Assembly: GCA_031292515.1 (NCBI GenBank)
Contig: JARLGZ010000081.1
Span: forward strand, 124,001 to 188,000
Direction: 5' to 3'
Length of the DNA: 64,000 bases
Source of the DNA: Puia sp.
Lineage (GTDB): Bacteria > Bacteroidota > Bacteroidia > Chitinophagales > Chitinophagaceae
Shown here in pieces: positions 9,501 through 55,804 of the stretch. Position numbers and translations under genes: made by a program. Positions within the stretch are counted from its first letter, which is position 1. Every line of letters begins with the position of its first letter. The notes under the pieces were generated by a model. The model saw only the letters and a program-made list of their open reading frames with translations, did not search any database and was not told the DNA's origin.

Positions 9501-9528
9501 CGACCACTCACCACTCACTACTCACTAC
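9501..9528 (+). repeat. Heptanucleotide array (TCACTAC type) abutting the FNR-like start codon
   Basis: Four heptads in phase, CGACCAC, TCACCAC, TCACTAC and TCACTAC, occupy 9501-9528. One base (A) then separates them from the ATG at 9530. The same heptad recurs at the 3' ends of the GH30, GH116, TOBE and XRE genes. Here it occupies the position of the ribosome binding site and contains no purine-rich Shine-Dalgarno sequence. Confidence 0.85.
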
Positions 9529-9529
9529 A

Positions 9530-10237
9530 ATGCCCGAAATTCCCTGCGATCTCTCCCGTTGCTTTCTCTGCAGTTCCTGTATTCCCGAATGGCGCGAAGC
9601 CGTCGGCATCAAGAAAAAAACCTTGCTGATAAAAAAAGGCAAACACCTCTTCCGGGAGAACGACCCGGTCGAAGGAATCTTCTTCATCTATGCCGGATCG
9701 GTCAAAGTACACAAACAGTGGGTCGACCAGAAAGAGCTGATCCTGCGTTTCGCAAAGACCGGGGACATCGTCGGCCACCGGGGACTCATCAGCAACGAAG
9801 GATACCCCGTGTCTGCTACGGCGCTCGAAGACACGACCGTGTGCTGGGTCAGCCCGGAATTCCTCGAAGCATCCCTGAAGACCAATCCCTCCCTGACCTA
9901 TCGCCTGATGCAGCTCTACGCCTCGGAATTGCAAAAATCGGATCAGCGCATGCGGGACCTGGCGCATATGGATGTCAAAGGCCGGATTGCAGCCGCCTTA
10001 TTGGAGATAGCAGACTGTCTTGGCTCGAAGAACAGCAACCCGAAGGACAACAAATTTATATCGATAACCATCACACGCCAGGACATCGCCTCCTATGCGG
10101 GAACTACCTATGAAACGGTCTTCAAATTTTTCACCGAGCTGACAGACGAGAGGATCATCACCACTTCGGGGAAAACCATCCGGATCAACAAAAAAGAACG
10201 GCTGCTCGCCATCGCACACCCGGTGTACAGGAAATGA
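9530..10237 (+). CDS. Crp/Fnr family regulator with FNR-like cysteines
   Basis: Transcription factor with a cyclic-nucleotide-binding-like beta-barrel (about 30-120), a long dimerisation helix, and a winged HTH (about 150-225, recognition region ITRQDIASYAGTTYETVFKFF). The N-terminus carries C6, C11, C14 and C17 (C-x4-C-x2-C-x2-C), and C105 lies in LEDTTVCWVSPEFL. By my alignment C105 matches Cys122 of E. coli FNR (LETSMVCEIPFETL). Three N-terminal cysteines plus that internal one is the ligand set of an oxygen-labile [4Fe-4S] cluster. I infer oxygen or redox sensing, which homologues with a similar N-terminus may share. No FNR box was found nearby, and its targets are unknown. Confidence 0.85.
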   Translation: MPEIPCDLSRCFLCSSCIPEWREAVGIKKKTLLIKKGKHLFRENDPVEGIFFIYAGSVKVHKQWVDQKELILRFAKTGDIVGHRGLISNEGYPVSATALEDTTVCWVSPEFLEASLKTNPSLTYRLMQLYASELQKSDQRMRDLAHMDVKGRIAAALLEIADCLGSKNSNPKDNKFISITITRQDIASYAGTTYETVFKFFTELTDERIITTSGKTIRINKKERLLAIAHPVYRK

Positions 10238-10313
10238 ATCGTTCATTCCGTCAATTATTCCTGTCCATTCGTCAATCCGGCTCCCCAATCCATCGCCTCT
10301 GCCCTGGTTTTAT

Positions 10314-10334
10314 CCACCACTCCCTACTCCGCCG
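10314..10334. repeat. Short heptad array overlapping the GH30 stop codon
   Basis: The heptads CCACCAC, TCCCTAC and TCCGCCG run in phase on the + strand. The TAG stop of the GH30-like gene (10324-10326) is inside TCCCTAC. This is a degenerate copy of the array class seen at 9501, 36991, 47926 and 55755. The spacer to its left (10238-10313) is itself made of partial repeats of CATTC and GTCAATC. Confidence 0.5.
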
Positions 10335-12279
10335 TCACCAACGTCGTAAAGCTCCCGGCCCCCAGGATAAAATGAGCTTCTCCCTCCGTAACAACCACCG
10401 GCGCCCCTTCCTTCATCGCCGACTCCTTATCCGTCACAAAAATCCGAAGGCTCTTCAACTTCTTCGGAAGCCCCTTCAACGTCGTCTCCCGCTCAGCGCC
10501 CGTATTCACGAGGTGTATAGCAAACTGTCTCTTCCCGTTATTGCCCAGGGCCGCACAAGTGATATCGGGCCTGTCAATGGTGATGGGCATCGCCGCCAGC
10601 CCCTTCGGGGTCGACGCCAGCTGTTTTAAATTCCAGAACCTTTGTGTAGGCGCCAGCGGAGCATTGTTACCAAAGAGGCCTCCGCCGACAAGCGGCGAGT
10701 AATCCGAAGTCAACTGCCACTGAAGGATCGACAAGGGCTGACAAATCGATAGGAGCCGGATATACAGGTTGATCTCATCCATCGCGTACGTCGGCTCGAG
10801 AAATATCGCCGGATAATTCCAGGCGGCTGCGTCGATACTTCCCTCCGCGACGATCAGGGGCAGGTCCAGCCGGGTGGCAGCAGCCGCCCATTTCTGCAGG
10901 GTCTCTTTTTCCCACCCTCTCCAGGAATGAAAGGATATGGCGCCGATATAAGGACGCGCTTCCGCATCCGACAGGGCTGCATCGATAAAAGAATAGGAAT
11001 TGGCATCGGAGTTATCTCCCAGCAGCATCTTTGTCTTTATACCCCGCCCGGCCAGGTAGGCGCCCAGCCCCTTGATCAGGGCATCATGTTCTTCTGCAGT
11101 CTGCCGGACATTGATCCCCAGATCCGACTCGTTGAAAGAGAAATATTTCACCTCTACCCCATAGTGCGAGTGCAGGTAATCGATATAATCCGCAATCGAT
11201 TTATAGATCTCGCTCATATTGTCTTTGTTGAGCGGATTTCCCCAGACACCATCCGCCCGCGGACGAAAGGCGGGAGAACCGACGATCGCCCAACGGGGCG
11301 GGAACCAGGCCGACAGGATGATGGGGATCCCCATCTTACCCAGGCGTTGCGCCATCTCCATCGCCTTGACGACACGTGGATTCAGCTTACCCGCTTTGGC
11401 GGAATCGATCGGATCGCTGATCTTGTCGGGCTGCCAGAGCGCCCAGGGCATCTCCACCCTTCCCCAGGCCACACGCATATTCTTGAGACAATAATCGATG
11501 ACCTGCGGATCCATCGCCGGGTTCTGCAGGCGGAAATTGCCTCCGAACCCGTCAAAAGAACGCCCGCTGAGAGCGGGGTTCAGGACCAGCGTGACAGGCT
11601 CTTTGTCGATCTCGCCGGAGGCCTTTATCGTAAATCGCCGGTTGGCGCCATCACCACTATGGAGACCGCCGCTCTGGACAGGCATATACAACACCATCCG
11701 ATCGCCGCGCTTATCCGTCTCTTTCCGGACGATGACCAGACCCGGCTCTTCAAAACCCAATTCGAACTGGCGATGCGCGGCGACGAGCCTGACACCTGAC
11801 GCCGTAGAACGGCCCAGTTCACTCGCCGCAGGCTGACTGCCCGCTCCGGCCGCCGGCTTTGCGTCTACCAATTGGATCGAGCTTTCCGTAAATTCGCTCG
11901 CCGGCAGATCCACACAGAAATAAGCCCCGTTCATATCGATGTCTGCCTTTGCCGTAAGTACCACCTGCACGGCTGCCGAGCCCTTCTCCCTGTCCTCTAC
12001 CCTTTCCACAAAATACAGGCTGTCGAGATGACTCGTCACAATCTGTGCGTTCCCTTCCCGTGCAAATAGTGGCCGCTGCCGCTCCTTCGCGCTGGCGTTG
12101 ATGGAAGACCAATCCTTTCCGACCAGCCGGATACCCGTCTCGATCGCCATCAGTTGCCCATCGATCCGTATCCCCCGGAGATTGCCCCATGGCTCCAGCT
12201 CGGCCTGGCAGGTTGCGTCATTCGCAAAAGCCGCCGCCATGGCGACCGCCAAAATCGCTGCCCTGTATCCTTTTTTCAT
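10324..12279 (-). CDS. GH30-like secreted O-glycosyl hydrolase
   Basis: Clan GH-A retaining glycosidase resembling family 30. A signal peptide (AAILAVAMAAAFANDATCQA) is followed by an unassigned beta-rich N-terminal domain to about residue 235. The (beta/alpha)8 barrel begins with SFDGFGGNFR. E384 in FNES is the probable acid/base and E479 in VAEGS the probable nucleophile. A C-terminal beta-sandwich (about 560-651) is usual for the family. A short Pro/Ala-rich insert (AKPAAGAGSQPAAS, about 140-153) interrupts the first domain. It is the last gene of the minus-strand polysaccharide locus. Possible substrates are beta-glycans; the sequence does not allow a narrower call. Confidence 0.8.
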   Translation of the reverse strand: MKKGYRAAILAVAMAAAFANDATCQAELEPWGNLRGIRIDGQLMAIETGIRLVGKDWSSINASAKERQRPLFAREGNAQIVTSHLDSLYFVERVEDREKGSAAVQVVLTAKADIDMNGAYFCVDLPASEFTESSIQLVDAKPAAGAGSQPAASELGRSTASGVRLVAAHRQFELGFEEPGLVIVRKETDKRGDRMVLYMPVQSGGLHSGDGANRRFTIKASGEIDKEPVTLVLNPALSGRSFDGFGGNFRLQNPAMDPQVIDYCLKNMRVAWGRVEMPWALWQPDKISDPIDSAKAGKLNPRVVKAMEMAQRLGKMGIPIILSAWFPPRWAIVGSPAFRPRADGVWGNPLNKDNMSEIYKSIADYIDYLHSHYGVEVKYFSFNESDLGINVRQTAEEHDALIKGLGAYLAGRGIKTKMLLGDNSDANSYSFIDAALSDAEARPYIGAISFHSWRGWEKETLQKWAAAATRLDLPLIVAEGSIDAAAWNYPAIFLEPTYAMDEINLYIRLLSICQPLSILQWQLTSDYSPLVGGGLFGNNAPLAPTQRFWNLKQLASTPKGLAAMPITIDRPDITCAALGNNGKRQFAIHLVNTGAERETTLKGLPKKLKSLRIFVTDKESAMKEGAPVVVTEGEAHFILGAGSFTTLVTAE

Positions 12280-12410
12280 ATTCCTGTTTCGTTTTGTGAT
12301 TATTTAGTCCGGCCATGATCAGGGCCCTGGCCGTCCCGATGACCGATAATCCCAGCCGTCTCAGTGACCGCCCGCCCCGCGCCGGGACACTGAGTCCATT
12401 CCCTCCGTCC

Positions 12411-13790
12411 TCAGTCGGGACGCTTCAACCCAAATTTCTCCACGATCTGCTGACCGATCTGCTGCCCCATCAACTCCCCGTTCTCCACAGCCTCCCTGAA
12501 ATGGATGCCACCATACAGACGGCTCATGGCAGCTTCCCTGGCAGCTTCAACAAAAGAATGAAAAGATCGGTTGGGTAACCCAAAAGATTTTTCGACACTA
12601 TCGGTATATTGAAAATGATCCCCATACAGCCCGGTGAGCACCATCGCCGAAGCCATCGAGATCACGCTGTGGGCGCTGGGATATTCCGGGAAAGGAGGCG
12701 TCTGCAGAAGAGGTTCCCAGGTCGGCGCATATAACTGCTGGATCGCCGTAATTGGCCGGACATAATTGCTCCTGTATTTCTCATCCCAAGCGCTGATAAA
12801 CCCGTCGAAGACAGCCACGGACACGAGACTGTAGGCATAGAGAGCCTCCACAAGCCCTTGTCTCTGCTGGTTGATGGCGTTGGAAGTGATCCCCATCCAG
12901 TGGCCGCCGGGAGAGATCTTCTTGATGCTATACATCAGGTGACCGACCGTCTGAACGGCATAGGGATTACAATCCCAGAACAAAGCAAAGGCGCGCTGGT
13001 CTTTTGTCATCGTCTGGCTGAGATGATAGACCTCCATGTATTCCTTTGTAAACGCTTCGGTTTTAAACGCGGCAGGTTCCGGCACCGCGAACTGGTGTGC
13101 CTTTGTGAGCGTCATCGGCCGGATCTGGTCCCAATGCGGCTCCACGGCCTCCATATACTCCGGGCCCGTCTGCTGCCAGGTCCCCGAATCCTTAGAAGGC
13201 GTAAAACGCGGCAGGGTCCGGGTATACCCATACTGGTCCTGCTTCGTCCACCGCAGGATGACCGACGCCACTTCTTCCCCGAATTTCACCGATCGGGCAT
13301 ATACATCCGCGGGGATCTTGCGGGTCCGGATCTCACCGCCCGCGGAATCATAGAGATGCTGAAACAGGTCTTTGGAGAAGACGAGCGCATAAGCCGTCTT
13401 GTGGAACGCCGCCGCCCCGGCCACCAGCCAGTTGTAAGCCAGCCCCGGATCGGGAGAAGGCAGCACCGCGGAATCCCCTTCCCTCGTGGCAAGCCCGTTC
13501 AGCTTTCCCGCAAACGTCTTATAGCCCGGCTTCCCCGGGCGGGCCGCCTCATAGAAGGCGATCATCGAATAGACATAGTCCCTGCTGGCTACCGGCGGCG
13601 CCGTGATATCCCGTATCATGGTCTCTGTCAGGGCCCCCAGCATCTTCTGAGCCAGCCTCGTGTCCCGGAACGACAGCCCGGCGTCCTGCGAGAGCGCGTT
13701 CTGCGAGACACACAAAGCAACCAGTGCCAGGAGAACCCTACACACCCCTATCGTTCCTGTCATTCCGGCCACCCTGGTCATTCCCGCCAT
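12411..13790 (-). CDS. Vanadium-dependent haloperoxidase/PAP2-like secreted protein
   Basis: Member of the PAP2/vanadium haloperoxidase superfamily. Its oxyanion pocket motifs are K-x6-RP (KYRSNYVRP), PSAHS in place of PSGH, and SR-x5-H (SRLYGGIHFREA). The Asp three residues after the last His, present in PAP2 phosphatases, is Ala here. A signal peptide ends at about ALSQ. Candidate starts are the ATGs at 13790, 13781 and 13763; the frame is open to 13862, which would overlap the upstream gene by 32 bases. The N-terminus is repetitive (MAGMTRVAGMTG). In Bacteroidota such genes commonly sit beside FG-GAP/ASPIC proteins and SusCD pairs, as here. I do not know whether it is a phosphatase or a peroxidase. 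Confidence 0.8.
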   Translation of the reverse strand: MAGMTRVAGMTGTIGVCRVLLALVALCVSQNALSQDAGLSFRDTRLAQKMLGALTETMIRDITAPPVASRDYVYSMIAFYEAARPGKPGYKTFAGKLNGLATREGDSAVLPSPDPGLAYNWLVAGAAAFHKTAYALVFSKDLFQHLYDSAGGEIRTRKIPADVYARSVKFGEEVASVILRWTKQDQYGYTRTLPRFTPSKDSGTWQQTGPEYMEAVEPHWDQIRPMTLTKAHQFAVPEPAAFKTEAFTKEYMEVYHLSQTMTKDQRAFALFWDCNPYAVQTVGHLMYSIKKISPGGHWMGITSNAINQQRQGLVEALYAYSLVSVAVFDGFISAWDEKYRSNYVRPITAIQQLYAPTWEPLLQTPPFPEYPSAHSVISMASAMVLTGLYGDHFQYTDSVEKSFGLPNRSFHSFVEAAREAAMSRLYGGIHFREAVENGELMGQQIGQQIVEKFGLKRPD

Positions 13791-13830
13791 TCGGGCCACC
13801 CCAGGCGCCTCTTGAAATTTACCGGTCCGG

Positions 13831-17235: not shown

Positions 17236-17255
17236 ACAGACGATATATATGAATA

Positions 17256-17290
17256 AAAGGAAAGATAATAATAAAAATTATCTTTCCTTT
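17256..17290 (-). terminator. Intrinsic terminator-like hairpin after susD
   Basis: AAAGGAAAGATAA (17256-17268) pairs perfectly with TTATCTTTCCTTT (17278-17290) around a 9-base A/T loop, 20 bases downstream of the susD stop codon. Thirteen perfect pairs make it a convincing RNA hairpin. It probably ends or attenuates the susCD transcript before the FG-GAP gene. Confidence 0.75.
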
Positions 17291-17310
17291 CAAACAAAGC
17301 GTTTACAAGA

Positions 17311-18939: not shown

Positions 18940-18966
18940 ACTGATTTTTTTAAGAATTTAAAGAAA

Positions 18967-23457: not shown

Positions 23458-23460
23458 ATT

Positions 23461-36976: not shown

Positions 36977-36990
36977 ACTATATTCATTGC

Positions 36991-37018
36991 TCACTACTCA
37001 CCACTCCCCGCTCCCTCA
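36991..37018. repeat. Heptanucleotide array between the GH116 stop and the SlyD start
   Basis: Four in-phase heptads (TCACTAC, TCACCAC, TCCCCGC, TCCCTCA) fill 36991-37018 on the + strand. The last contains the TGA stop of GH116 (TCA at 37016-37018). The other end lies about 15 bases from the SlyD ATG. In the transcript the array reads as GTAGTGA-type units. Confidence 0.8.
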
Positions 37019-39928
37019 TCCGTTAAAGCGGATCTCCAGCGCCTGCCCCTCTCCGATCCGAATCCCTTCGTCCCCGCCGGCAGCGGTACCGCCAGGCGCA
37101 ATGCTACCACCAGCCTTAGCGCTCGCGGCCGCAGCACCGGCAACCCCGCCGCTCACCCGAAACACCCACTCTCCACCCGTCATCTGATGCGAATTCCTGA
37201 CGGCCTTACCATCCAGGGTAATGACCACCCCATCCGGTTTCATCCCTGCCGGCACTGCCACGGCGACGGATCTCAGCGACAGCGAACCGTGCTTCACCTC
37301 GATCCGGTGTAGATTCTTCCCGGCCTTCCGCTCCTGCCGGTAAGAACCCCAGCCTTCGGCAGCCGTAAACGGCGCCTTGAAAAAATCCGACCCCAGACGC
37401 GGCGCAAACCCGATATGCCCGCGCGGCCCGTGATAGGTGAACCCGCAGGCGGAAATAAAGGTCCCATAGCTGGCCATCGCCCGCGCATAGTGATCGCTGC
37501 ATTCGATCTCGTTGAAAGGGTTCCGCTTATAGGCATGGTAGCGGTCATGGATACTCTTTGTAAGGATCAGCGCCTCCTCCGTCATCCCCTCCGCCATCAT
37601 ATGCGCCGCCACCTGGTGCTCGAAACCGCTCATACACTCGCTGAAATAGCCCAGCTGCCAGGCCTTGGCATCTTCCCCATACGGCTTCTCCTCTTTTAGC
37701 GGGTTTGTATTCATCACCATGCCCCCGTCCCCCGCAAGAGCATAGAACCTTCCCCCCGGGTGGTCTTTGATATAAGGACCCACATCGGGTTTGTAATTGT
37801 ATTTCCAAAGTGCCCGTAGCGCGCTCACAGTCTTGTCCTTGTCGAGCACCCTCCCCAAACCGACCTGCCAGGCCCAGGACTGTCCATATACCTGGTCGAT
37901 ATGACAGGTGTTGTAGGATCCGATACTCTTCCTGCCCGCCACGGGATCAGGCCGGTGGATAAAATATTCTCCGTTGAACAGGTATTGTTCCATGTTCCTC
38001 CTGCCTTTTTCGACATACTCCCGGCATGTCCTGGCGAATTCCACATCCTTCATCTCTGCGGCCATCTCCTCACCCGCCCGGGCAGCCGCAATACACAAGC
38101 CCACGATCCAGGAGATCTCCCCCTTCCAGACGGCATCCAGCGTATTTTCCAATGGCGTGTCTTCCATACCGTCCTTATTCTTATCCTGCGCCAACAGGAA
38201 TACGACAGTCTTCTTTATATTGTCCCAGTTATTCTTTAGGAAACCGTCATTCGCGCTCATCTGGTGCTCCCGGTAAAACCGAAGGATCGTCCCGGCCTGC
38301 CCGTCGATAGCCGGATGCATATTCGCTTCGCCCCGGAAACCCATGCCTCCGTCGGGAAGTAGCGAGATACCGAGATCCACCCGTTGACGAGTGTCCCTCT
38401 CCAGCGCGGGGAAAACCCGCCCCGCCGCCTGTGCATACTGCCAGACATGCGTACAGGTCCCTTCGCAACAACCGACCCCTTCCCATGCATAAAACCTCCC
38501 CGACGACAGCCTGTGGGTCGTGGTGGTAGCCAGGATAGACGTGTTGGCGAAAGTCCGCTCGAGGAACCACCAGGGCAGCGTACTATCATACCAGGTAGTA
38601 TGCCAGAGCATCGTCTTCTGTCTCAGCCATGTATATTTCCCCGCGACATAGTTAGCCACGGCAGCCGCATCTTCAAAATGAACGGTATAATATCTCCCCC
38701 GGTCCGGAATTGCGCCCAATACCAGGTTCGGCATATGCCAGGCGATCGCAAAATCGCTGGTAATGCTTCCCGCAGCAGGCACTTTAAAAGAACGGGACAG
38801 TATCGCAATGGGTGCGTTTTCTTCTTCTTTCAGAAATCCGCTTAACAGACCGGGATCCGGACCCGATGGCAAAGACCCATCCTGCTTCGGGGCAGCTTTC
38901 CTGACATCCTCCAGCGAAGCATAACAACGGGTAGTCCCGGAAAGAGACACAAAGGCCAACGTCCCAAAATCGGCAGCCTGCCGGATCTCCGCATGATCTG
39001 AACTTGCCTGCAATGACAGGCCCTCATAGGAAGCCCTTTTGTAATGGGCTCCTGACAGACCGGCCTCACGGGGCCCATCGCCCCCCTTTGACCCTCCACC
39101 CGCTTTAGGCCATCCGGCCGGTTTCAGCGGCCCCAGGGGCTGATTGCTCCTGCTGAAATCCTTTTGCTTCTTCGCCGTCTCAGGCAAGATCCGGTTCTCG
39201 ACCCACCCAACGACGCTTGCCTCTATTTCTTTATCCGAAAGATTCTTTACCTCTATCGATTGCACCGTCACCGGCAAGCCGCTATTCAACTCGTCGCCGG
39301 GAATAAAGGGGGAAAAGGCCTTCACCTCGACAACCACCGGCAAGCCCTTCTGGGAATACCGGATCGTAGCCACCGGGTAGGTAGCCTCGAATTCGATCTC
39401 ATCCCAGTCTTCATGCTGCAAACGTTTCACGATCGTCTCCCCGGCTTTCCAATCCCCATTATGCTGCTTCCCGGCCGGCTGACGGAGAATCAGGGCAAAT
39501 CCCTGCTGGAACGGGCTCTCCTGAACCGCAGGCTCGAGGTACAGCGTCCCGCAGGTATTGCTGATCTCGTTTATGTTGAAACCCTCCAGTTTGATAGGTA
39601 GTATCTTGGGGATAGCGCCTGCCTGGTTCTTATTGAAAACATCCCAGAGCCACAACCGGCCGTCACCGCCGAGATACACATTGCCGCAACAGATCCCGCC
39701 CACCGGCATGCCGATATAACGCAGCTCCTGCCTGCTTTTACGATAGACGGTCGCCTGCCCCCTTTCATAAAGAGACCGCACCCACGCCGGATCGAACTTC
39801 TTATCATGAGGAACGCCATTTGGAGAGAAATCATTCGCCGTGAATGGACCCGCAACGGGAATAAACCTGGAGAACCCCGCACCCGCCGCCAATAATCCTG
39901 ACTGTTTTAAAAAGAATCGTCTTTGCAT
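37016..39928 (-). CDS. GH116 family glycosidase with Tat-like signal
   Basis: A protein of 970 residues resembling bacterial GBA2-type beta-glucosidases/glucosylceramidases. The N-terminus (MQRRFFLKQSGLLAAGAG) has twin arginines and suggests folded export. A beta-sandwich domain (about 40-400; RYIGMPVGGICCGNVYLGGDGRLWLWDVFN) precedes the alpha/alpha6 barrel (about 430-880). ENTLDAVWKGEISWIVGLCIAA and NTCHIDQVYGQSWAWQVG match the catalytic region, and the Asp of HIDQ corresponds to the family acid/base. A C-terminal Ala/Gly-rich tract (about 931-954) interrupts the last sandwich. It is divergent from the SGNH hydrolase. Confidence 0.85.
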   Translation of the reverse strand: MQRRFFLKQSGLLAAGAGFSRFIPVAGPFTANDFSPNGVPHDKKFDPAWVRSLYERGQATVYRKSRQELRYIGMPVGGICCGNVYLGGDGRLWLWDVFNKNQAGAIPKILPIKLEGFNINEISNTCGTLYLEPAVQESPFQQGFALILRQPAGKQHNGDWKAGETIVKRLQHEDWDEIEFEATYPVATIRYSQKGLPVVVEVKAFSPFIPGDELNSGLPVTVQSIEVKNLSDKEIEASVVGWVENRILPETAKKQKDFSRSNQPLGPLKPAGWPKAGGGSKGGDGPREAGLSGAHYKRASYEGLSLQASSDHAEIRQAADFGTLAFVSLSGTTRCYASLEDVRKAAPKQDGSLPSGPDPGLLSGFLKEEENAPIAILSRSFKVPAAGSITSDFAIAWHMPNLVLGAIPDRGRYYTVHFEDAAAVANYVAGKYTWLRQKTMLWHTTWYDSTLPWWFLERTFANTSILATTTTHRLSSGRFYAWEGVGCCEGTCTHVWQYAQAAGRVFPALERDTRQRVDLGISLLPDGGMGFRGEANMHPAIDGQAGTILRFYREHQMSANDGFLKNNWDNIKKTVVFLLAQDKNKDGMEDTPLENTLDAVWKGEISWIVGLCIAAARAGEEMAAEMKDVEFARTCREYVEKGRRNMEQYLFNGEYFIHRPDPVAGRKSIGSYNTCHIDQVYGQSWAWQVGLGRVLDKDKTVSALRALWKYNYKPDVGPYIKDHPGGRFYALAGDGGMVMNTNPLKEEKPYGEDAKAWQLGYFSECMSGFEHQVAAHMMAEGMTEEALILTKSIHDRYHAYKRNPFNEIECSDHYARAMASYGTFISACGFTYHGPRGHIGFAPRLGSDFFKAPFTAAEGWGSYRQERKAGKNLHRIEVKHGSLSLRSVAVAVPAGMKPDGVVITLDGKAVRNSHQMTGGEWVFRVSGGVAGAAAASAKAGGSIAPGGTAAGGDEGIRIGEGQALEIRFNG

Positions 39929-41669: not shown

Positions 41670-43910
41670 CTAATGACCAACCTTGATACTCCTCTGCTCG
41701 TCTTTTTGATTGACATTCCGGATCACCACCTCGACCCTCCTGTTACACTGCCTTCCCGCTTCCGTCTTGTTATCACAGATGGGATTGTCCTTTCCGAAAC
41801 CACGTGCTACCAGGCGGGACTTGTCGACCCCATGTGCGATCAACGCCTCTGCGACTGCCGTTGCACGGGCTTTTGAGAGACGTTTGTTGACGGCTACGCT
41901 GCCCTTGCTGTCCGTATATCCGTCGACATAGAAATTCGAATTGCTGATCTGTTCATTCATGACACCTGCCGCATGGGCAAGAATGGTATCGGACTGCGGA
42001 CGGATGGTAGATTTGCCATAGTCGAACAGGATGTTCTTGAAATCCGCGGTGATCTGTACGACGACTTTTTCCACCGGGCATCCTTTCGTCGACGCAGGAC
42101 CGGGATCGTTGGGACAAAGATCCTGGTCATCGGGGATTCCGTCACCATCGGTATCCGGAACGGGGCATCCCTGATATTTGGCGACACCGGGTACCGTCGG
42201 GCATTTATCGTCCTTGTCAGGGATACCATCCCCGTCTGTGTCGGGACAACCATTAAACTGTTTCAGACCCGGTACCGTTTTACACGAATCTTCTTCATCG
42301 TTGACGCCATCACCGTCCGTGTCGGGGATCGGACATCCATGATAACGCGCCAAACCCGGAACCGTCTTACAGGAATCCTCTTCGTCGTTGATGCCATCCC
42401 CATCCGTATCGGGAATCGGGCAGCCCTGGTATCTCGCCAGACCAGGAACCGTCGGGCATTTATCGGCATCGTCGTAGATGCCGTCTTTATCGGTGTCGGG
42501 TTTGTGCTTCTTCTTGTACTGCATACCGAAATGAAATCCCACATGAAGATCCGCCTGCTTAGAATCGTGTACGAGTGCAGAAAGTACGCTTCCGGAGCCC
42601 ACAAAGAACGGGCCGACCCGGAACGCCACACCTGCGTTGAATTTTGTCAGATCATTATAGCTCAGCGGCAGTTCTACGCTGAACATCTTATTTTCCCAGC
42701 GCGGGGTAAGACTATAGGCGTTATAATAATATAGCGACAGCGTACCCGTCCGGGTAGTCTTAAACTGGCCGGACGCATTCAACGCAAAACCTCCCGCAAA
42801 CAGATAATCTATATCGGTATGGATCGTCGTAGGGAGATTCACATTATAGGAATTGCTTTGCGGCGCCCCGCTGAAATAAGGACTCGCATCAAGAATGGAT
42901 TTATATTGGCTTACCGACTTCCCGGCAAATTGACTTAATCCAAAAGTGCCTGCGGGAGCGGCCGGAATGTCGACCGTATAATCGGCAGCCTGGTTGGAAC
43001 TCCTTCCAAAACTGATCCGCCCGACATCCAGCAGGGAAGCGGATATCTTCAGCCTGTATTTGTTGGCAAAACGATCTGTTTGATACATGGAATAATCCGC
43101 GGACGGCCGGTATTCATAAACGAACCCGATATCCCCCCCCGCGCCGTGCCCGTTGAACTTAAAAAAATCGCTGAATTTGTAGTCGCTGAAATTTGCAGCC
43201 GTCGCATTCAACGCCAGGCCACCGGTTGCCGATGTGAGATACGTATTTCCAGGCCCGGCTACCGTGCCCGAAAAGTTTGTCGTCGTCAGATAAGAATCCG
43301 CCGTGCCCGCAATATACTTCAAGGTAATACCACCCTTAAAAAAATGATGGCTGCCCTTATTGGTAAAGACCTGCCCGACAGATCCTCCTATTTCTGTCCA
43401 ACCTGTCGCATGGACCAGCATATTTGAATTAAAATTAAATGGGATCCCGGCCGTGGTCGTGCCTCCGTCTATCAATGTGCTGGCAAGGTTGCCGTTGATA
43501 TTATTCCCATTTGCAAAGACTCTTGAACGCGTGGTAAATGCCAGCGAGGTCTTCGGGCTCAGACTAAACATCACCGAAGGCCCCAGCACATCTACATAAG
43601 ACAGGCTGTTGACATTTCCATTTCCACGCAGTAATTTCGATTTCAGCGAATCGGCATTGAAAGACCGGGTGATATCACTAAACCGCAAGCCAGATTGGTT
43701 GGTCCCCACAAAGCCATTGATCGCAAAGACATTGACATCCCATTTATACCGGTTATCCGCAATGTTTGCAGGATTGAAAAATACGCCGTTCACGCCTGAA
43801 TAATTACTCGTACGATAGCCCGGAAAGCTCTGTGACTTTACGGCATGCGTACCTAATAATAACAAGGAGAGGCCACTCAAAAAAGATCTTAAAAAGTTAG
43901 CAATTCTCAT
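41670..43910 (-). CDS. OmpA-family outer membrane protein with barrel, TSP3 repeats and peptidoglycan-binding domain
   Basis: A protein of 746 residues. A signal peptide (LLLLGTHAVKSQ) leads into a large beta-barrel-like region of the DUF5723 type to about residue 470. Five calcium-binding thrombospondin type 3 repeats follow (DTDGDGxxDxxDxCxxVPG, ending GCP), then an OmpA C-terminal domain (ILFDYGKSTIRP, DGYTDSKG, NKRLSKARATAVAEALIAHGV, NRRVEVVI). It anchors the outer membrane to peptidoglycan. It is divergent from the Gfo/Idh/MocA gene with a 256-base spacer. Confidence 0.9.
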   Translation of the reverse strand: MRIANFLRSFLSGLSLLLLGTHAVKSQSFPGYRTSNYSGVNGVFFNPANIADNRYKWDVNVFAINGFVGTNQSGLRFSDITRSFNADSLKSKLLRGNGNVNSLSYVDVLGPSVMFSLSPKTSLAFTTRSRVFANGNNINGNLASTLIDGGTTTAGIPFNFNSNMLVHATGWTEIGGSVGQVFTNKGSHHFFKGGITLKYIAGTADSYLTTTNFSGTVAGPGNTYLTSATGGLALNATAANFSDYKFSDFFKFNGHGAGGDIGFVYEYRPSADYSMYQTDRFANKYRLKISASLLDVGRISFGRSSNQAADYTVDIPAAPAGTFGLSQFAGKSVSQYKSILDASPYFSGAPQSNSYNVNLPTTIHTDIDYLFAGGFALNASGQFKTTRTGTLSLYYYNAYSLTPRWENKMFSVELPLSYNDLTKFNAGVAFRVGPFFVGSGSVLSALVHDSKQADLHVGFHFGMQYKKKHKPDTDKDGIYDDADKCPTVPGLARYQGCPIPDTDGDGINDEEDSCKTVPGLARYHGCPIPDTDGDGVNDEEDSCKTVPGLKQFNGCPDTDGDGIPDKDDKCPTVPGVAKYQGCPVPDTDGDGIPDDQDLCPNDPGPASTKGCPVEKVVVQITADFKNILFDYGKSTIRPQSDTILAHAAGVMNEQISNSNFYVDGYTDSKGSVAVNKRLSKARATAVAEALIAHGVDKSRLVARGFGKDNPICDNKTEAGRQCNRRVEVVIRNVNQKDEQRSIKVGH

Positions 43911-45794: not shown

Positions 45795-45848
45795 GACCGG
45801 TTATTAAGAAAGCGCGAAAACGCTGACAAGATATTTCCGCATATTCCG

Positions 45849-45898: not shown

Positions 45899-45975
45899 TA
45901 CACCCCGGATGGGTTGATCGTACTGCCAGGCACAATTTGTCTTGCACAATGGGTTGCTATTGCATGCCCTGCCAC

Positions 45976-47570: not shown

Positions 47571-47953
47571 CTCTTCCGCCTCGGTTTTATTTTATTTTGG
47601 ACGCGACAACAGGATCTCATCCCTTTTCTCAAGTCTTTTTCCATTTGCGCTCCGTTTGCACCTCATCCGCCCCCTCTGCACCCCAATCACCACCCAATTC
47701 TCACTATCAGCCACTCACTATTCAATTCCCAATTCTCACCCCCCGCCACTCGCTACTCACTCCTCATCGGCCTCTACCCCCTCCCCGCTGACCATTCTCC
47801 GCCAACTGCTTCCCACTCATCATTCATTACCGATTATTCACTCCTAATCCTCTATTTACTACTCGCTCCTCTCCACTCACTATTCACCACCCGCCACTCA
47901 CTTTTCCCCACCTTCTATTCCCCACTCACTACTGACTACTCCCCTCTCCCACC
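47571..47953. repeat. Degenerate CACTCACTA array inside the mod operon
   Basis: The spacer between the TOBE gene and modB holds no gene. From about 47690 to 47953 it is made of pyrimidine-rich, CACTCACTA- and CAATTC-like units. They become regular at the right end, where heptads TCACTAC (47926-47932), TGACTAC, TCCCCTC and TCCCACC run in phase. The TAG stop of the TOBE gene is inside the first of these, so its last codons are array sequence. The left part (47571-47690) is T/C-rich without recognisable signals. Confidence 0.8.
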
Positions 47954-48339
47954 ATCACTTCATTGGTCTTCACCAGGGCCAGCACCTCATCCCCCGCTTT
48001 TAGCTGCAGCTCATCCACCGCACCCGCGGTAATGACCGACCCGATCTCCTGGTCCTTCCACCGCATTTTTATCAGGGACAGCAAGGCGCCTACCTCTACG
48101 GATTCTATACGGCAGGGAATCCTGTTGCGGATGCTCAGCCCCCCCTGCCAACCCTTTGCTATTATCGTCTCGGTCTCCTTAAAAAGGATCTGTACATTCT
48201 TGCCGGGAGCCAGCAGCGGATTGGCGTCCGGCGTATCGATCACAATGGCATGCAAGAGGAGACCGCCGGAGCCGACGGTTATCAGCGAGAGATTACCCTC
48301 CGTCCGGATCTCCGTTATCGTCCCGGTCAAAATATTCAT
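47929..48339 (-). CDS. TOBE-domain molybdate-binding (Mop-like) protein
   Basis: A protein of 136 residues made of two TOBE/Mop-type oligonucleotide-binding folds (ILTGTITEIRTEGNLSLITVGSGG, then IPCRIESVEVGALLSLIKMRWKDQEIGSVITAGAVDELQL). It lacks an HTH, so it is a molybdate storage or delivery protein, not a ModE regulator. The C-terminal residues SSQ and the stop codon are encoded by the heptad array. It lies four bases after the lipoprotein gene. Confidence 0.85.
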   Translation of the reverse strand: MNILTGTITEIRTEGNLSLITVGSGGLLLHAIVIDTPDANPLLAPGKNVQILFKETETIIAKGWQGGLSIRNRIPCRIESVEVGALLSLIKMRWKDQEIGSVITAGAVDELQLKAGDEVLALVKTNEVMVGEGSSQ

Positions 48340-48343
48340 ACGG

Positions 48344-48733: not shown

Positions 48734-48770
48734 ATATAAGTCTGGTTTAAAGATAGCTTGTGTCTCATGG

Positions 48771-49550
48771 CTACCAGGGAACAAGATACCCGTATTTGAG
48801 GAACAGCGCGCGCGCCTGCCGGGAATAAAGATAACGATAAAAAGCCTCGGCCGCCGCCGGGTGGTGATCCCTGCCGTAGGTAAGCAGCGCAGCCGACTGG
48901 GCGATCGGCGAATACAGCGTTGAGTCCAGCGGGATCCAGCTCCCCTTTCCTTTCATTTCATCCGCCAGCACGATCGACCTCGCCGTAAAACCGATATCGG
49001 CGCCTCCGGAGAGGATGAACTGGTTGACCTGGGAAATACTCTGACCGAAGACCAACTTGTCTTTTATTTGCTCATAAAGGCCCAACCGTTTCAGGAAAGC
49101 TACCGTAGCCGCTCCGTAGGGCGCCAGGGTGGGATCGGCGACGGCGATTTTTTTTATCTTATCTGACAGTAGCGCTTCCGGGCCGGAGGAGACATTCACA
49201 TCGCTGCGAAGGGTCCACAGCACCAGCCCTCCCGACGCATAGATGGCCGGCTTGCCCACGACAAATCCTTTTTTATACAGTTCGAGCGGATAGCTGGTAT
49301 CGGCGGATACAAAAACATCGAAGGGCGCGCCATTCTCTATCTGGGCCGTCAGCTTGCCCGAAGATTCGATGATCACCTCCGGGACGGCGCCCTGCTGCTT
49401 TCCAAAGTCGGTAGCCAGCTCCCGGATCACAAATTGCACATTGGCGGCGGCGGCGACCCGGATCGCCTGTGCGTGCGCCGAAGCCTGCCCGGCAACGACC
49501 AGGAACAGCAGGAATGCGGCAAACCGGGTGATTCGTTTTACAGTATTCAT
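48771..49550 (-). CDS. modA: Molybdate-binding periplasmic protein
   Basis: The substrate-binding protein of the molybdate importer, 259 residues. A signal peptide (FAAFLLFLVVAGQASAHAQA) is followed by IRVAAAANVQFVIRELATDF, IIESSGKLTAQIENGAPFDVFVSAD and ADPTLAPYGAATVAFL. These are the oxyanion-contacting segments of ModA. It is the first gene of the minus-strand mod operon and divergent from the GH27 gene with 112 bases between. Confidence 0.92.
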   Translation of the reverse strand: MNTVKRITRFAAFLLFLVVAGQASAHAQAIRVAAAANVQFVIRELATDFGKQQGAVPEVIIESSGKLTAQIENGAPFDVFVSADTSYPLELYKKGFVVGKPAIYASGGLVLWTLRSDVNVSSGPEALLSDKIKKIAVADPTLAPYGAATVAFLKRLGLYEQIKDKLVFGQSISQVNQFILSGGADIGFTARSIVLADEMKGKGSWIPLDSTLYSPIAQSAALLTYGRDHHPAAAEAFYRYLYSRQARALFLKYGYLVPW

Positions 49551-49606
49551 ACCGCGAATTTTGTTTTACTACCCAAAAATCAGGGCCCCCATTTGTCAAT
49601 CGGCGT

Positions 49607-49614
49607 TACATTTG
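49607..49614 (+). promoter_or_regulatory. Candidate -7 box (TACATTTG) of the GH27 gene
   Basis: An exact TAnnTTTG match 48 bases before the GH27 ATG. The -33 region is unclear. Confidence 0.45.
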
Positions 49615-49662
49615 ACGGAAAATACAAGTTCCCCTTACCGGCAAAACCAAGTCTAAAATAGA

Positions 49663-51603: not shown

Positions 51604-51677
51604 CCGGATTACAGTTTGTGCTCCTTCATGTAGCAAATGAGCAGTTTCGTCCATGAGAGAAAGAATCTATGAAACGA

Positions 51678-51707
51678 AAAAACCTCCAAGTTTAGTCGGA
51701 GGTTTTT
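51678..51707. terminator. Bidirectional intrinsic terminator after GH27
   Basis: AACCTCC (51681-51687) and GGAGGTT (51698-51704) pair around a 10-base loop, with A-tract and T-tract on the flanks (51678-51707). It ends the GH27 transcript and, on the other strand, could end the small transcript starting near 51803. Confidence 0.9.
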
Positions 51708-51803
51708 CAGAGAAATTGAATTTTTAGCTTTTACAGGGCGGATCAGGACAATGGACGGTTTTGGGACATTGGTTTTTTCGACACGGTTTTCATTCGGTTT
51801 GGA
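51678..51803 (-). ncRNA. Candidate small RNA between promoter 51809-51838 and terminator 51678
   Basis: A near-ideal minus-strand promoter is followed about 100 bases later by a strong terminator, with no convincing reading frame between. The predicted RNA is about 125 bases. It contains a short internal hairpin (CAATG pairing with CATTG) before the terminator stem. I cannot match it to a known RNA family. It could regulate in trans, or pair with the GH27 3' UTR, with which it shares the terminator. Confidence 0.35.
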
Positions 51804-51808
51804 TATAT

Positions 51809-51838
51809 CAAAAGTAAGCCGCTTCCGCATACCAACAA
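51809..51838 (-). promoter_or_regulatory. Minus-strand promoter TTG-N19-TACTTTTG
   Basis: On the minus strand TTG (51836-51838) is 19 bases from TACTTTTG (51809-51816). Both elements and the spacing match the Bacteroidota consensus, better than any other promoter in this window. No annotated gene starts downstream of it on that strand. Confidence 0.6.
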
Positions 51839-52134
51839 TAATAGAAGTCGCGTATACTTTTAAATTAATACTAAGTACTTATCAGCAGGTAAAAAAATTC
51901 CCGGTTAGGACAGAAGACATATTAAAAAAGCATAATATCATTAGTGTAAATCTACGAAATCGCGGAAAATTTGTCGTTAGCCCATGGATCGATCTCCGAC
52001 CGTTTTTCCACTCTTCTGTCTTATTTTTTCTACACTTTTTTGCAGGACTTCCCGAAAGTCGCTCCGCTTTCGCCGAAATTCATCCATTACATGTTGGCAT
52101 GCTTATTCCTACCATTTGAGAAAAAAACACTATT
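51839..52134. other. AT-rich spacer without a recognised gene
   Basis: The stretch between the small-RNA candidate and the DUF892 gene is clearly more AT-rich than its neighbours. It has a short hairpin (CGAAAG at 52053-52058 with CTTTCG at 52067-52072) and a near -7 box (TACCATTTG, 52110-52118) 16 bases before the DUF892 ATG. An open frame of 122 codons (51751-52119) has no start context, no recognisable domain and poor codon use, so I do not call it. Confidence 0.5.
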
Positions 52135-52707
52135 ATGACTAATACGACGAACAAAACCCATCACGCCGCACCGGCGTCAAAAGCCAATGGCAACGGCAAA
52201 AATGCCAAAGCCAACGATTCGAGACTGGAAGAATTTTTCCACGAGGAGATCAAAGATATTTACTGGGCCGAAAAGAAGCTTGTCCAAACCCTGCCTAAAA
52301 TGGCAAAGGCCGCGACCGGCACAGACCTGAAAAATGCCTTCACCGGGCATCTGGAGCAAACAAAGGAGCACGTCGCCCGCCTGGAAAAAGTGTTTGATCT
52401 TCTCGGGCACAAGCCACAGGCAAAAAAATGCGATGCCATGGAGGGCATCACCGAAGAAGGCGCCAGCATCATTGAAGACACCGAAGACGGCACTTCTACC
52501 CGGGATGTGGCACTGATCCTTGCTGGCCAAAAAGCTGAACACTACGAAATCGCCACCTACGGGGGGCTCGCCCAGATCGCTGCGACACTGGGACATAACG
52601 ATGTAGCCAAAATTCTCGAGACAACACTCCAGGAAGAGAAGAAAACCGATGCGATGCTGACACAGCTCGCAGAAAGAAGAGTTAACCAGGACGCCAGCGA
52701 AGAATAA
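52135..52707 (+). CDS. DUF892 (YciF-like) ferritin-like protein
   Basis: A four-helix ferritin-like protein of 190 residues in the DUF892 family, which includes stress-induced YciF. A polar Lys/Asn/Ala-rich N-terminal tail (1-28) precedes the bundle. The di-iron ligand pattern is visible in EEFFHEEIKDIYWAEKKL, HLEQTKEHVARLEKVFDLL, GQKAEHYEIATYGGL and TTLQEEKKTDAMLTQLAE. It is probably a stress protein. It is alone, with its own promoter region and a strong terminator. Confidence 0.9.
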   Translation: MTNTTNKTHHAAPASKANGNGKNAKANDSRLEEFFHEEIKDIYWAEKKLVQTLPKMAKAATGTDLKNAFTGHLEQTKEHVARLEKVFDLLGHKPQAKKCDAMEGITEEGASIIEDTEDGTSTRDVALILAGQKAEHYEIATYGGLAQIAATLGHNDVAKILETTLQEEKKTDAMLTQLAERRVNQDASEE

Positions 52708-52740
52708 TAGGAGAATAATATACGCAGTCTATATAACGAG

Positions 52741-52778
52741 AGGGCCGTATTGCGCAATGAAGCGCTCCGGCCCTTTTT
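52741..52778 (+). terminator. Intrinsic terminator of the DUF892 gene
   Basis: AGGGCCG (52741-52747) pairs with CGGCCCT (52768-52774), with an additional inner GCGC pairing and a run of five T ending at 52778. It lies 34 bases after the stop codon. Confidence 0.85.
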
Positions 52779-52885
52779 GCCACATTCGAACATCACCCCA
52801 TATTCCCGGGATCCAAATGGGCGAAAAACTGTGTCCGCCAAAAAGGGTCATTCCATATTCTCTCTGCCCACCACCGACAGACCGC

Positions 52886-54016
52886 CTAAACACCCCGTTC
52901 CGCACAGACCTCCTCGGCCAGCCCAAAACTCAGCGTCATGCCCGCCCCACCCAATCCGTTGACGATCGTCACACCCGGCTCTGGGTCATAGATGAAGTCA
53001 TGCTCGCCGTTGGTCCGCTTCGGATAGATGCCATTCCAGCTCTGGAGAAGCGCCCAGTCCCTGAAACGGGCAAAGCTCTTCATATAGTCGAGTACCAACG
53101 CATTGATGAATTGTTTATCGAAGGGATCGAAGGCCAGCCCGTATTCATGACTGTCCCCGATCGTCAGCTCCCCTTCCGCATTCTGAGAGACCATCACATG
53201 GACACCCCATTTGATATACTCCGGCATCGTCTCCTCGTAATGTTTCTTCAACCGGGGGAGCGAGGGAGCCACCCCGAAAGCCTTATAATGTACAAGCGAG
53301 AGGCCGCCGCAGAGGGAAGGGCCGATACGCCAGTTTCCCGGCTGAGCCTTGAGCCGCATCATCTGCAGCTTGCATTTAGTGAAGAAGTTCTCCGCAAATA
53401 CCTCGGGGTACAGCGTTTCAAATTCGGCGCCGCTGCAGACAAAGATCTCATCGGCGCTCCAGCTCTCTTTGCCGGAGAAGACACGCGGATGCGTAATCGC
53501 CGAGATCGCCTTGTTGAAATGAAAGACCACGCCATATTTCGCGGTAAGATAGGCAGGCAATTTTTCGATAGCCACCCGGGACTCTACGATCATTTCGTCG
53601 GCGCTCCAGAACGCCCCTTTTAACCCCGTTGGGTTGACGGCTTCCGACCGGCGACAGGCTTCCGCGGCCCCGATGGCCGCAACGGGCCGCCTGCCTTCGT
53701 AGGCGGCGGCCAGTTCCTGCAGGATCTGCCACTCGAGATCGCTATACGCGAGGTGCAGGCTGCCCGCTTCTTCACACCAGAGACCCGATTCCCTGCATAC
53801 TTCCTTCCAGATGGAACGGGAGAGCAGGGCGCGCTCATAGAGACCTCCGCCGGGCTGCCCCACCGGCCATATCATGCCGAAATTGCGGATGGAAGCGCTG
53901 ACAGCCCTTTCATTACGCTCAAAGACGGTAACCCGGTAACCTCTCCTGGAAAGACTCAGGGACATGGCCAGGCCTGCGATGCCCGCGCCGATTACAATAG
54001 CAGATTTATGCTGCAT
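52886..54016 (-). CDS. TIGR03364-type FAD-dependent oxidoreductase (phosphonate-associated)
   Basis: A flavoprotein of the DAO/glycine-oxidase superfamily, about 376 residues. From the ATG at 54016 it opens IVIGAGIAGLAMSLSLSRRGYRVTVFERN (dinucleotide fold, GxGxxG), then ASIRNFGMIWPVGQP, and ends GVTIVNGLGGAGMTLSFGLAEEV, typical of TIGR03364. Members of that group neighbour phosphonatase-like genes and are thought to oxidise aminophosphonates; some act on N-methylated 2-aminoethylphosphonate. The start overlaps the DUF5690 stop by eleven bases, so the pair is translationally coupled. Its substrate is inferred from family and context only. Confidence 0.85.
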   Translation of the reverse strand: MQHKSAIVIGAGIAGLAMSLSLSRRGYRVTVFERNERAVSASIRNFGMIWPVGQPGGGLYERALLSRSIWKEVCRESGLWCEEAGSLHLAYSDLEWQILQELAAAYEGRRPVAAIGAAEACRRSEAVNPTGLKGAFWSADEMIVESRVAIEKLPAYLTAKYGVVFHFNKAISAITHPRVFSGKESWSADEIFVCSGAEFETLYPEVFAENFFTKCKLQMMRLKAQPGNWRIGPSLCGGLSLVHYKAFGVAPSLPRLKKHYEETMPEYIKWGVHVMVSQNAEGELTIGDSHEYGLAFDPFDKQFINALVLDYMKSFARFRDWALLQSWNGIYPKRTNGEHDFIYDPEPGVTIVNGLGGAGMTLSFGLAEEVCAERGV

Positions 54017-55349
54017 AACTCGCTTGAATATTTTTGGGAATGGAATAATATTTTCGCCGGAAATAGACGGCCGCGACGATCGTACCGGCAATGCCGAACA
54101 GGCTGATGCCGATCACGATATCGATGAAGAAACTCGTCCAGGACAATTTCAGACCGATAAATTGTTTTACGAACAAGACCACCACGCTGCCGAGGTAGCC
54201 GAAGGCATCCGCTATATAGATGATAAAGCCCACATTCCCGGTGATCTTATAGCTGGCGATCATCCGCTCGAAATACAGACAGTTGAATGGCACATAGCTT
54301 AGGTACAGACCCGTTCCCACCAGCGTCATCCATGCCACGGGGCCGATCCAATGATAGGCGAAAAACAAGGTCGACACAAACGCGATGACATAACCGCCGA
54401 TGATGATATAGTGGTTGATCATGAACGCCTTGATATTGCTCTTTACAAGGACCAGCAGGCTCATGCAAAGCAGCACGACCAGGGAGACGGGGACCTCCGT
54501 CTGCGTGAAGATGGCGGCATTCTGGCCGAAACCCATCTCCGTCCAGAGTTCGTTGGCGAAATTATCCCTGAAATCCCGGAGCACCGTCAGCAACACATAG
54601 GTGGCGACGATGATGATGATCCCGGGCAAAAACGTGGCGACAAAGGTCTTGCGATCGGCAGCCGTCATCGGCTTGCGCACACTCCTCAGCTTTATATCCT
54701 CGGCCGTCGGCGGAGGGACCTGGTTCAGCAGCCAGGTCAGCACCAGCATGGGTAAAACAAACAAAGCGCCCGCGACAAAAGGCATCCACATCTCGCTGAT
54801 ATGCCAGTCCACGACGACCGCCTTCCCGACGCTCTTCACCACGCCCGAGGAGAAACTGAAAGTGGTACACAACACAGCTCCCATAAACTCCGTCGCCTTG
54901 CGGCCCTCGAGATAGCCGAACACCAGGCCCCAGACCATACCCAACGGGAAACCGTTGATCAGCAGAAACACGATACTGTAGGGGACCGGAGTGATTGCGA
55001 AAAACAGCAGGGCCACCCAGGCCACCAGGATCAGCCGGACGATCATCGAGGCCCTCTTTTCCGGTTGCATGCCGGCAATCAGCCTGATGCCATAGAATTT
55101 GCTGAGCATATAGCCGATCACCTGCGCCGTCACCAGCCAGACCTTATAATCGATGCCCAGGAAATGATACCCCGCGAATCCCGCGGAAGTGAAAGGCTTC
55201 CGGAAGGCATACATACAGAAATAGACCCCAAAGGAACACAGGGCGGCATAGATGGAAATGAACCAGGATGGCATCCTGCTCAGTTTTTGCTGAAAAACGG
55301 GAGAAACAAACATCCTTGATTTATTTTTTTTAGCGATTATCACTTCCAT
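54006..55349 (-). CDS. DUF5690 family MFS-like transporter
   Basis: An integral membrane protein of 447 residues with about twelve TM helices. It resembles the DUF5690 family, an MFS branch of Bacteroidota with a first helix like glycerol-phosphate antiporters (AALCSFGVYFCMYAFRKPFT). Other family segments are GFPLGMVWGLVFGYLEGRKATEF and NCLYFERMIASYKITGNVGFIIYIADAFGYLGSV. A second start at 55313 is possible. Coupled to the FAD oxidoreductase, it is probably the uptake route for that enzyme's phosphonate substrate. This is inference. Confidence 0.82.
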   Translation of the reverse strand: MEVIIAKKNKSRMFVSPVFQQKLSRMPSWFISIYAALCSFGVYFCMYAFRKPFTSAGFAGYHFLGIDYKVWLVTAQVIGYMLSKFYGIRLIAGMQPEKRASMIVRLILVAWVALLFFAITPVPYSIVFLLINGFPLGMVWGLVFGYLEGRKATEFMGAVLCTTFSFSSGVVKSVGKAVVVDWHISEMWMPFVAGALFVLPMLVLTWLLNQVPPPTAEDIKLRSVRKPMTAADRKTFVATFLPGIIIIVATYVLLTVLRDFRDNFANELWTEMGFGQNAAIFTQTEVPVSLVVLLCMSLLVLVKSNIKAFMINHYIIIGGYVIAFVSTLFFAYHWIGPVAWMTLVGTGLYLSYVPFNCLYFERMIASYKITGNVGFIIYIADAFGYLGSVVVLFVKQFIGLKLSWTSFFIDIVIGISLFGIAGTIVAAVYFRRKYYSIPKNIQASYAA

Positions 55350-55804
55350 GCCACTGAATACCTGCCGAGACGACCGAACATTTGCGATACAAACAGCCTG
55401 TAACTAAATACGTCGATCTAACCGAGATCTGACCGAACCCGAAACCACCGGACATCCACCGGACATCCGGCACCAAAGTACGTGCTATTTGATTAACGAA
55501 TGCCCCGACTTCCCGGTCTTCCCTATTATATTATCATTAATATATCTGTCACCGCCCCCGACCACTCACTATTCCTCGTTTATTCCCAATCGCCATCCGC
55601 TATTTCCCTCTCTGCTTCCGATCCCGCATCTGTCTGACCGCGACCGACCACTCCCTGACCACCCACTACTGCCCCCTCACCACTGACTACCGACCACCCG
55701 CTACTCACTTCTCACTACTCCTCACTCACTGCTCGCCGCCAACCACTCACCACCTCACTACTGACTATTCACTACTCACTACTCACTACTGACTACTCAC
55801 TACC
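55350..55804. repeat. Gene-free spacer with heptanucleotide TCACTAC array
   Basis: No gene is present. Seven in-phase heptads (TCACTAC/TGACTAC/TCACTAT) run from 55755 to 55803, one base from the TGA stop of the XRE gene (TCA at 55805-55807). To the left, 55550-55754 is a degenerate version rich in CCACTCAC and GACTACC. The remaining part (55350-55540) has a doubled CCGGACATCC and a minus-strand near -7 box TACTTTG, and it probably contains the DUF5690 promoter. Confidence 0.85.

Follow-up and report, generated by a model that had tools for sequence, protein, structure and literature searches.

Heptad repeat arrays anchored at native stop codons and biased by replication strand in a Puia genome

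Short tandemly repeated heptanucleotides (STRRs) lie in the intergenic DNA of cyanobacteria, and repetitive extragenic palindromic (REP) elements with REP-associated tyrosine transposases (RAYTs) are palindromes of 3′ regions. Here we describe tandem arrays of the heptad TCACTAC and its variants in a 64,000-nucleotide stretch of a Puia sp. genome (assembly GCA_031292515.1, contig JARLGZ010000081.1, positions 124,001 to 188,000; hereafter the window), which lies within contig C211 of a 7.34 Mb genome in 285 contigs. The arrays are anchored at native stop codons in the sense of the gene that ends there, are polarised away from the stop, follow the replication strand and, where an inverted partner array is present, keep a fixed partner order. 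The cyanobacterial STRRs are likewise intergenic tandem heptads, but their units are different. The GTAG-like foot of REP elements resembles the heptad unit, but the Puia arrays are tandem heptads and none lies beside the lone Y1 transposase match of the genome.

Heptamers are known to be over-represented in bacteria, and MacGregor 2015 (PMC4679880) and Rehm et al. 2015 (PMC4692102), on which the following comparisons draw, give no settled cause. The GGGAATC and GGGGA(C/T)T repeats of Xanthomonas and Nostoc, which form G-quadruplexes, resemble the Puia arrays in being intergenic heptad arrays with inverted (‘convergent’) pairs at genes of mixed function, and in lying nearer to the upstream open reading frame (ORF; 28 nt on average) than to the downstream one (160 nt) (Rehm et al. 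2015). The Puia arrays differ in being anchored at the native stop in gene sense, in their leading-strand bias and in the absence of G-tracts, as units of the form T[A/G]GT[G/C]AG contain no run of three G of the Xanthomonas quadruplex type. The TAACTGA direct repeats of Beggiatoaceae, Cyanobacteria and some Bacteroidetes also form direct heptad arrays with a scattered phylogeny, are strain-specific and are mixed with other heptads; a further likeness is that eight sets between stop codons in a Microcystis sample all had one chromosomal orientation (MacGregor 2015). In the Guaymas genome, however, these repeats lie mostly just upstream of starts, whereas start contact in Puia is at chance level and the unit differs, which sets the Puia arrays apart from that kind. 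Period 7 and a location near gene ends were both found here, as in the intergenic heptameric simple sequence repeats described by Mrazek, Rehm and MacGregor. Heptameric intergenic arrays near gene ends are known from Xanthomonas, Nostoc and Beggiatoaceae; native-stop anchoring and leading-strand bias are new, and no description of native-stop anchoring of heptad arrays was found among the titles and abstract openings listed in literature searches. So sharp a placement (at the native stop, in gene sense, on the leading strand, any partner lying only downstream) ties the repeats to both translation termination and the direction of replication. It suggests that a process linked to the places where ribosomes leave the transcript makes or keeps the repeats, and it yields testable hypotheses on R-loops, on how repeats arise and on the rearrangement of genomes at gene ends.

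A sequence-only reading of the window had reported TCACTAC runs at five loci, all in the same orientation and each touching a start or stop codon, and had suggested either a family of repeats that prefers gene boundaries as its place of insertion or expansion, or a post-transcriptional element. The named heptads were present on the + strand at all five loci, and the doublet TCACTACTCACTAC, with up to three mismatches, matched the window 24 times, always on the + strand, against 2.15 expected; none of 100 shuffles reached 24. Array extents were scored with a heptad profile trained on the genome, and the null was 731,950 bases of random sequence of the same dinucleotide make-up (dinucleotide Markov), since reversed sequence was useless as a control because reversed arrays still score (79 hits). 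The null gave four hits scoring ≥ 18 and none ≥ 22, and the array at 10.3 kb (score 21) is therefore marginal. By profile, the arrays at 47683–47948 and 55643–55803 were much longer than first reported. The stops of three genes (10324–12279, 37016–39892 and 47929–48339) lay inside or touched an array edge, and that of a fourth (55805–56377) was one base from its array. The features, in window positions, are as follows.

9501–9528, + strand: TCACTAC array (profile block 9503–9528, score 42) ending one base before the FNR/CRP-like start codon, ATG at 9530; contacts with starts do not exceed chance in the sample; no counterpart at the same place in a relative, genome G008.
9530–10237, + strand: FNR/CRP-like regulator gene, with Pfam domains cNMP_binding and HTH_Crp_2.
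10311–10334, + strand: short, weak and marginal heptad array (profile block 10311–10329, score 21) overlapping the stop of the gene at 10324–12279; no counterpart in G008.
10324–12279, − strand: gene called GH30 in the sequence-only reading; no Pfam family at E ≤ 0.001, though a homolog occurs in seven other genomes of the genus; the seven homologs end within one residue of its stop.
36981–37018, + strand: heptad array at the TGA stop of the GH116 gene (profile block 36981–37016, score 37).
37016–39892, − strand: GH116 family glycosidase gene; the homolog in genome G020 ends 28 residues apart, an outlier.
47683–47953, + strand: long array (profile block 47683–47948, score 174) whose first units encode part of the TOBE C terminus and its TAG stop.
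47929–48339, − strand: TOBE-domain gene with array-encoded last residues; two homologs end three residues earlier.
55555–55803, + strand: long array with a main block at 55643–55803 (score 173) and a weak block at 55555–55574 (score 21), cleanest beside the XRE stop, one base away.
55805–56377, − strand: regulator gene with XRE helix-turn-helix (HTH) and cupin domains; 16 homologs in the genus that lack arrays end within about three residues of its stop.

Across the genome, counting overlapping registers, there were 35 perfect doublets in the forward and 47 in the reverse orientation, compared with 0 and 1 of a backwards control; the common orientation of the five arrays thus held within this contig and not genome-wide. 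Contigs C143 and C198 start within long arrays, and therefore the assembly breaks at arrays. A profile scan of 1.25 Mb on five contigs (large ones already showing doublet matches; genes from a home-made caller, with approximate starts) yielded 89 arrays, 80 of them in intergenic gaps, with the consensus T[C/G]AC[T/C]AC, which reads T[A/G]GT[G/C]AG on the gene strand. The unit varied mainly at two positions, two units made up 51 of the 137 perfect heptad doublets, and approximately 5% of genes (48/958) carried at least two canonical units at the stop. Period 7 was the commonest among the longer tandem arrays of periods 4–12, here (40 arrays, the next highest period being 10) and in most congener samples, the sample of genome G022 having no period-7 array.

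Contact with gene ends was mostly with stops read in gene sense. Of 83 intergenic arrays, 56 touched a stop in the sense of its gene and three a stop in the opposite sense, while three random-placement nulls for the former gave means of 13.9, 18.5 and 16.0 and maxima of 24, 30 and 30. Contact with starts was at the level of chance, with four sample arrays in the C-rich sense (null 4.8) and one in the other (null 4.9). The idea of a preferred site at gene boundaries therefore narrows to the native stop in gene sense; the wider scan upheld enrichment there, and the contact with the FNR-like ATG is not evidence for it because start contact is at chance. Gaps between two − strand genes held 22 arrays on the + strand and three on the −, and gaps between two + strand genes 20 on the − and five on the +. 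In 58 gene ends, an array started between −60 and +30 of the stop, nearly all of them between −20 and +13 (one at 26 nt is probably a chance case), and units stood mostly at offsets of 0, 7, 14 and 21 or 4, 11 and 18. Stops at these ends were TAG in 33 cases, TGA in 20 and TAA in 5, compared with 289, 296 and 369 among all 954 genes (TAG excess, Fisher p = 2 × 10⁻⁵). Within the first 20 nt from the stop of 1239 genes, a set that includes stretches selected for arrays, 166 units were in sense and six in the opposite orientation. In 20 further stretches, picked for holding repeats, 32 of 49 arrays (score ≥ 25) were anchored at a stop.

The arrays are also polarised. Canonical units were densest in the first 20 nt past the stop and nearly gone by 70 nt, although single arrays reach approximately 270 nt. 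In the 27 longer anchored arrays, the half next to the stop held 94 units and the distal half 46; array by array, 18 favoured the stop side and four the far side (sign test, p = 0.004).

The anchoring concerns the native stop, because homologous proteins end at the same residue. For 15 of the 81 array-ended proteins, contigs of congeners contained a homolog covering over 60% of the length (in three instances, two queries hit the same subject place), and 13 of the 15 ended within 5 amino acids (aa) of the array-ended protein, 10 of them exactly; the two outliers were 8 and 28 residues apart, the latter being the GH116 gene of the window. Two of the 15 homologs carry arrays themselves, and without them 11 of 13 ended within 5 aa. 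The same comparison for array-less genes gave 27 of 45. In G008, the FNR–GH30 region is in the same order (79% protein identity for the GH30-like gene) and the arrays are absent; a search of that genome for the TOBE region matched just 692 of 2655 bases, in a neighbouring part. That genes merely run into stop-rich arrays is ruled out by this agreement of homologous ends.

Array orientation followed GC skew in most contigs. On contig C148 (positive skew), 18 of 19 arrays were on the − strand; on the negative-skew contigs C211 and C28, 10 of 10 and 9 of 10 were on the + strand. Contig C137, with skew near zero, held 24 and 18 arrays by strand, and C33 (negative) was less clear, with five and three. 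Arrays were borne by 29 of 372 leading-strand genes, 15 of 329 neutral and 4 of 257 lagging ones (Fisher p = 4 × 10⁻⁴), and leading against lagging counts by contig were 13/133 and 0/72 for C148, 4/63 and 0/56 for C211, and 7/90 and 0/63 for C28. In the 20 further stretches, the G-rich unit was on the G-rich strand in 27 cases and on the opposite strand in seven where |skew| exceeded 0.03, and in six and nine at lower skew. With a GC skew of −0.05 to −0.21 over the window, the shared + orientation of its arrays is best explained by replication strand. The orientation of the next gene had no clear effect on arrays at equal gap length.

Inverted partners occur sometimes, mainly where skew is low. 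Opposite-orientation neighbours within 400 nt were always ordered with GTAGTGA first and TCACTAC second (21/21; 12/12 in the sample and 9/9 in the further stretches), and partner arrays could form a stem-loop with the stop-proximal array; 11 inverted-pair gaps of C137 fold into long stems. A complementary arm followed 9 of 18 neutral gene ends, two of five lagging ones and only 1 of 35 leading ones (neutral vs. leading, p = 9 × 10⁻⁵). Among 102 diverse arrays, a partner arm was found downstream of 33, upstream of none and in no shuffled sequence at score 12, and in 39, one and none at score 10. Two of the C137 gaps (178095–178280 and 214580–214675; L039 and L041) have 45 bases in common, mostly the loop between inverted heptad arms. 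In a congener, GTAGGGT and GCGTTCA also occur as inverted array pairs (G024:C24, 19433–19555 and 34601–34736; L229 and L230).

The unit is neither restricted to this genome nor typical of its genus. At least 118 stretches of the species collection contain the triple unit; their sources include Bacteroidota, rhizobia, cyanobacteria, Chloroflexi, Paenibacillus and Wallbacteria, among others. Of 96 cross-phylum TCACTAC arrays (25 near locus edges left out, the sense stop considered first), 46 were at a sense stop (−30 to +20) and two had an opposite-strand stop within 20 nt; another 25 fell inside an opposite-strand ORF, calls that are probably spurious, given that no stops occur on the C-rich strand. 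At several of these ends, the array began within a few bases after a TAA, or after a TGA lying outside the unit. At the cross-phylum loci, the G-rich unit was on the G-rich strand in 39 cases, on the C-rich strand in 21 and neutral in 36. Within the genus, the perfect doublet was found in one other genome of 33, and congeners use different heptads. In co-directional gaps of congeners, all 16 arrays lying no more than 20 nt from a stop had more G than C in sense (13 from one genome, many at paralogous permease-like genes), and so did 31 of 43 when every array in such gaps was counted. For the heptad GATGAGT of two other families of the phylum (27 loci, 11 distinct arrays at one locus each, three of them too close to contig starts), a long sense reading frame ended where the array starts at all eight loci with enough upstream sequence. 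Two GATGAGT loci carry terminator-like sequence past the array, as read by eye. Of 296 genomes sampled from the phylum, 19 had the TAGTGAG doublet; nothing singles this heptad out as such, because its backwards control was about equally frequent (approximately 21, counted by eye).

R-loops on head-on genes are reported to be toxic. The explanation that we tentatively favour is a transcription-coupled growth of repeats where ribosomes leave the RNA, with an R-loop as its putative central step. When the ribosome departs at the stop codon, the nascent RNA beyond would be naked, and the G-rich, C-poor transcript might re-anneal to its C-rich template as an R-loop. The resulting local single-strandedness could seed, expand and keep heptad repeats outward from the stop. 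Co-directional (leading-strand) genes would tolerate such R-loops; on head-on genes, collisions of R-loops with the fork would lead to the loss of arrays. Homologous exchange between arrays might spread one unit through a genome, and lineages would drift to different heptads. This model would account for where the arrays are anchored, for their sense and polarity, for the strand they favour and for their indifference to the next gene, the last being expected because the cause would lie in the upstream gene's own transcript. A broader claim, that a general bacterial process appends heptad arrays to native stops in gene sense, with outward growth limited by replication direction, is possible but doubtful; the arrays would then be a footprint of ribosome exit, with the heptad free to change between lineages.

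Several observations weigh against transcription-coupled growth and its generality. Stop anchoring was absent from 27 of the 83 intergenic arrays, and contig C33 showed no strand bias (2 of 93 leading and 2 of 57 lagging genes); the strand test covers only five contigs, with GC skew as a proxy for replication direction. The R-loop model does not explain the choice of G or C at position 5 of the unit, and inverted partners are outside its predictions. Adjacent units were alike less often than in within-array shuffles (90 vs. 111 expected; 1 of 1000 shuffles gave so low a value). Outside this genome, some of the sense asymmetry follows from the unit itself, as stops occur on only one of its strands, and 11 of the 43 congener arrays in co-directional gaps had less G than C in sense. 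The Xanthomonas heptad, moreover, is reported to have no leading or lagging preference (Rehm et al. 2015).

Ordinary replication slippage, with heptads tolerated in 3′ untranslated DNA alone and stops touched because the unit contains TAG and TGA, would suit a unit with stops in all frames on one strand and the prevalence of period 7 noted above. The arrays also show a visible 14-base higher-order period, with units two apart more alike than shuffled (103 vs. 88). Homologs that stop at the same residue indicate that the array did not create the gene end, however, and neither the sense orientation nor the leading-strand bias is predicted, which makes this account unlikely. Slippage of one unit at a time is not the main process, because adjacent units are less alike than shuffled and units two apart more alike; two-unit blocks or exchange between arrays fit the unit pattern better.

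About equally improbable is a selected RNA element, in which GUAGUGA repeats of the 3′ untranslated region bind a protein or, with the partner arm, form a stem that insulates or protects the mRNA end. The downstream position of the partner arm, the invariant order of inverted pairs and the restriction of unit variation mainly to two positions are consistent with it, and structures right after stops are reportedly widespread (PMC7518266). However, the partner stands at only one of the 35 leading-strand gene ends, the unit differs between congeners and only about one gene in twenty carries an array. Rfam, at gathering thresholds, returned nothing for four C137 stretches, which also sets aside a known RNA family for these stretches. 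The RNA recognition motif (RRM) protein RbpB was dropped as a candidate binder, as the material consulted held no usable binding motif.

Small mobile elements that insert at stops, either REP/RAYT-like or palindromes resembling miniature inverted-repeat transposable elements (MITEs), with single arrays as their remnants, are improbable. The inverted pairs have a recurrent loop, the 45 bases common to two C137 gaps include non-repeat sequence, and one Roseiflexaceae array keeps its downstream side with a different gene at its stop. However, exact sharing between loci is rare, with just six pairs of 36–48 bases among 80 arrays, and the one Y1 transposase match of the genome has palindromes of its own (by eye). 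A REP/RAYT system in particular was rejected, since this lone Y1_Tnp match has no tandem unit in the surrounding 17.7 kb.

It is similarly hard to credit that the arrays are Rho-dependent terminators on the antisense strand, where C-rich, G-poor RNA would load Rho and block antisense or head-on transcription entering the gene: the antisense RNA of the array has that composition, the orientation puts C-rich RNA on head-on transcripts, and of the 654 genes with a gap ≥ 80 (1.25 Mb sample and the 20 stretches), only 54 are followed by intrinsic-terminator-like sites, but arrays are not enriched at convergent gene pairs at equal gap length and the partner arm would mask the C-rich arm in the hairpin cases. 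The arrays are not intrinsic terminators themselves, as terminator-like sites were seen at 2 of 70 array ends, compared with 52 of the 584 other ends. A selected role as backup stop codons was rejected, because the unit varies at the very two positions where a change removes TAG and TGA, and TGGTCAG, the unit without a stop, makes up 24 of 232, close to the approximately 29 calculated from unit counts under independence.

In genome G020 (contig C8, approximately 371–457 kb; L104–L108), a family of paralogs of about 800 aa ends in ...NPVKSLRSE*, mostly written AGTGAGTAG or near it; this conserved C terminus comes close to spelling the heptad and is a possible seed. Two of the paralogs, approximately 35% alike, have 63 identical bases past the stop. 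Two Roseiflexaceae contigs (L113 and L158) have a common array and 4.6 kb of downstream sequence (91%), with different genes ending at the array, a pattern that reflects either recombination at the array or an assembly chimera. In the window itself, positions 42267–42482 hold an apparently coding 87-base tandem repeat.

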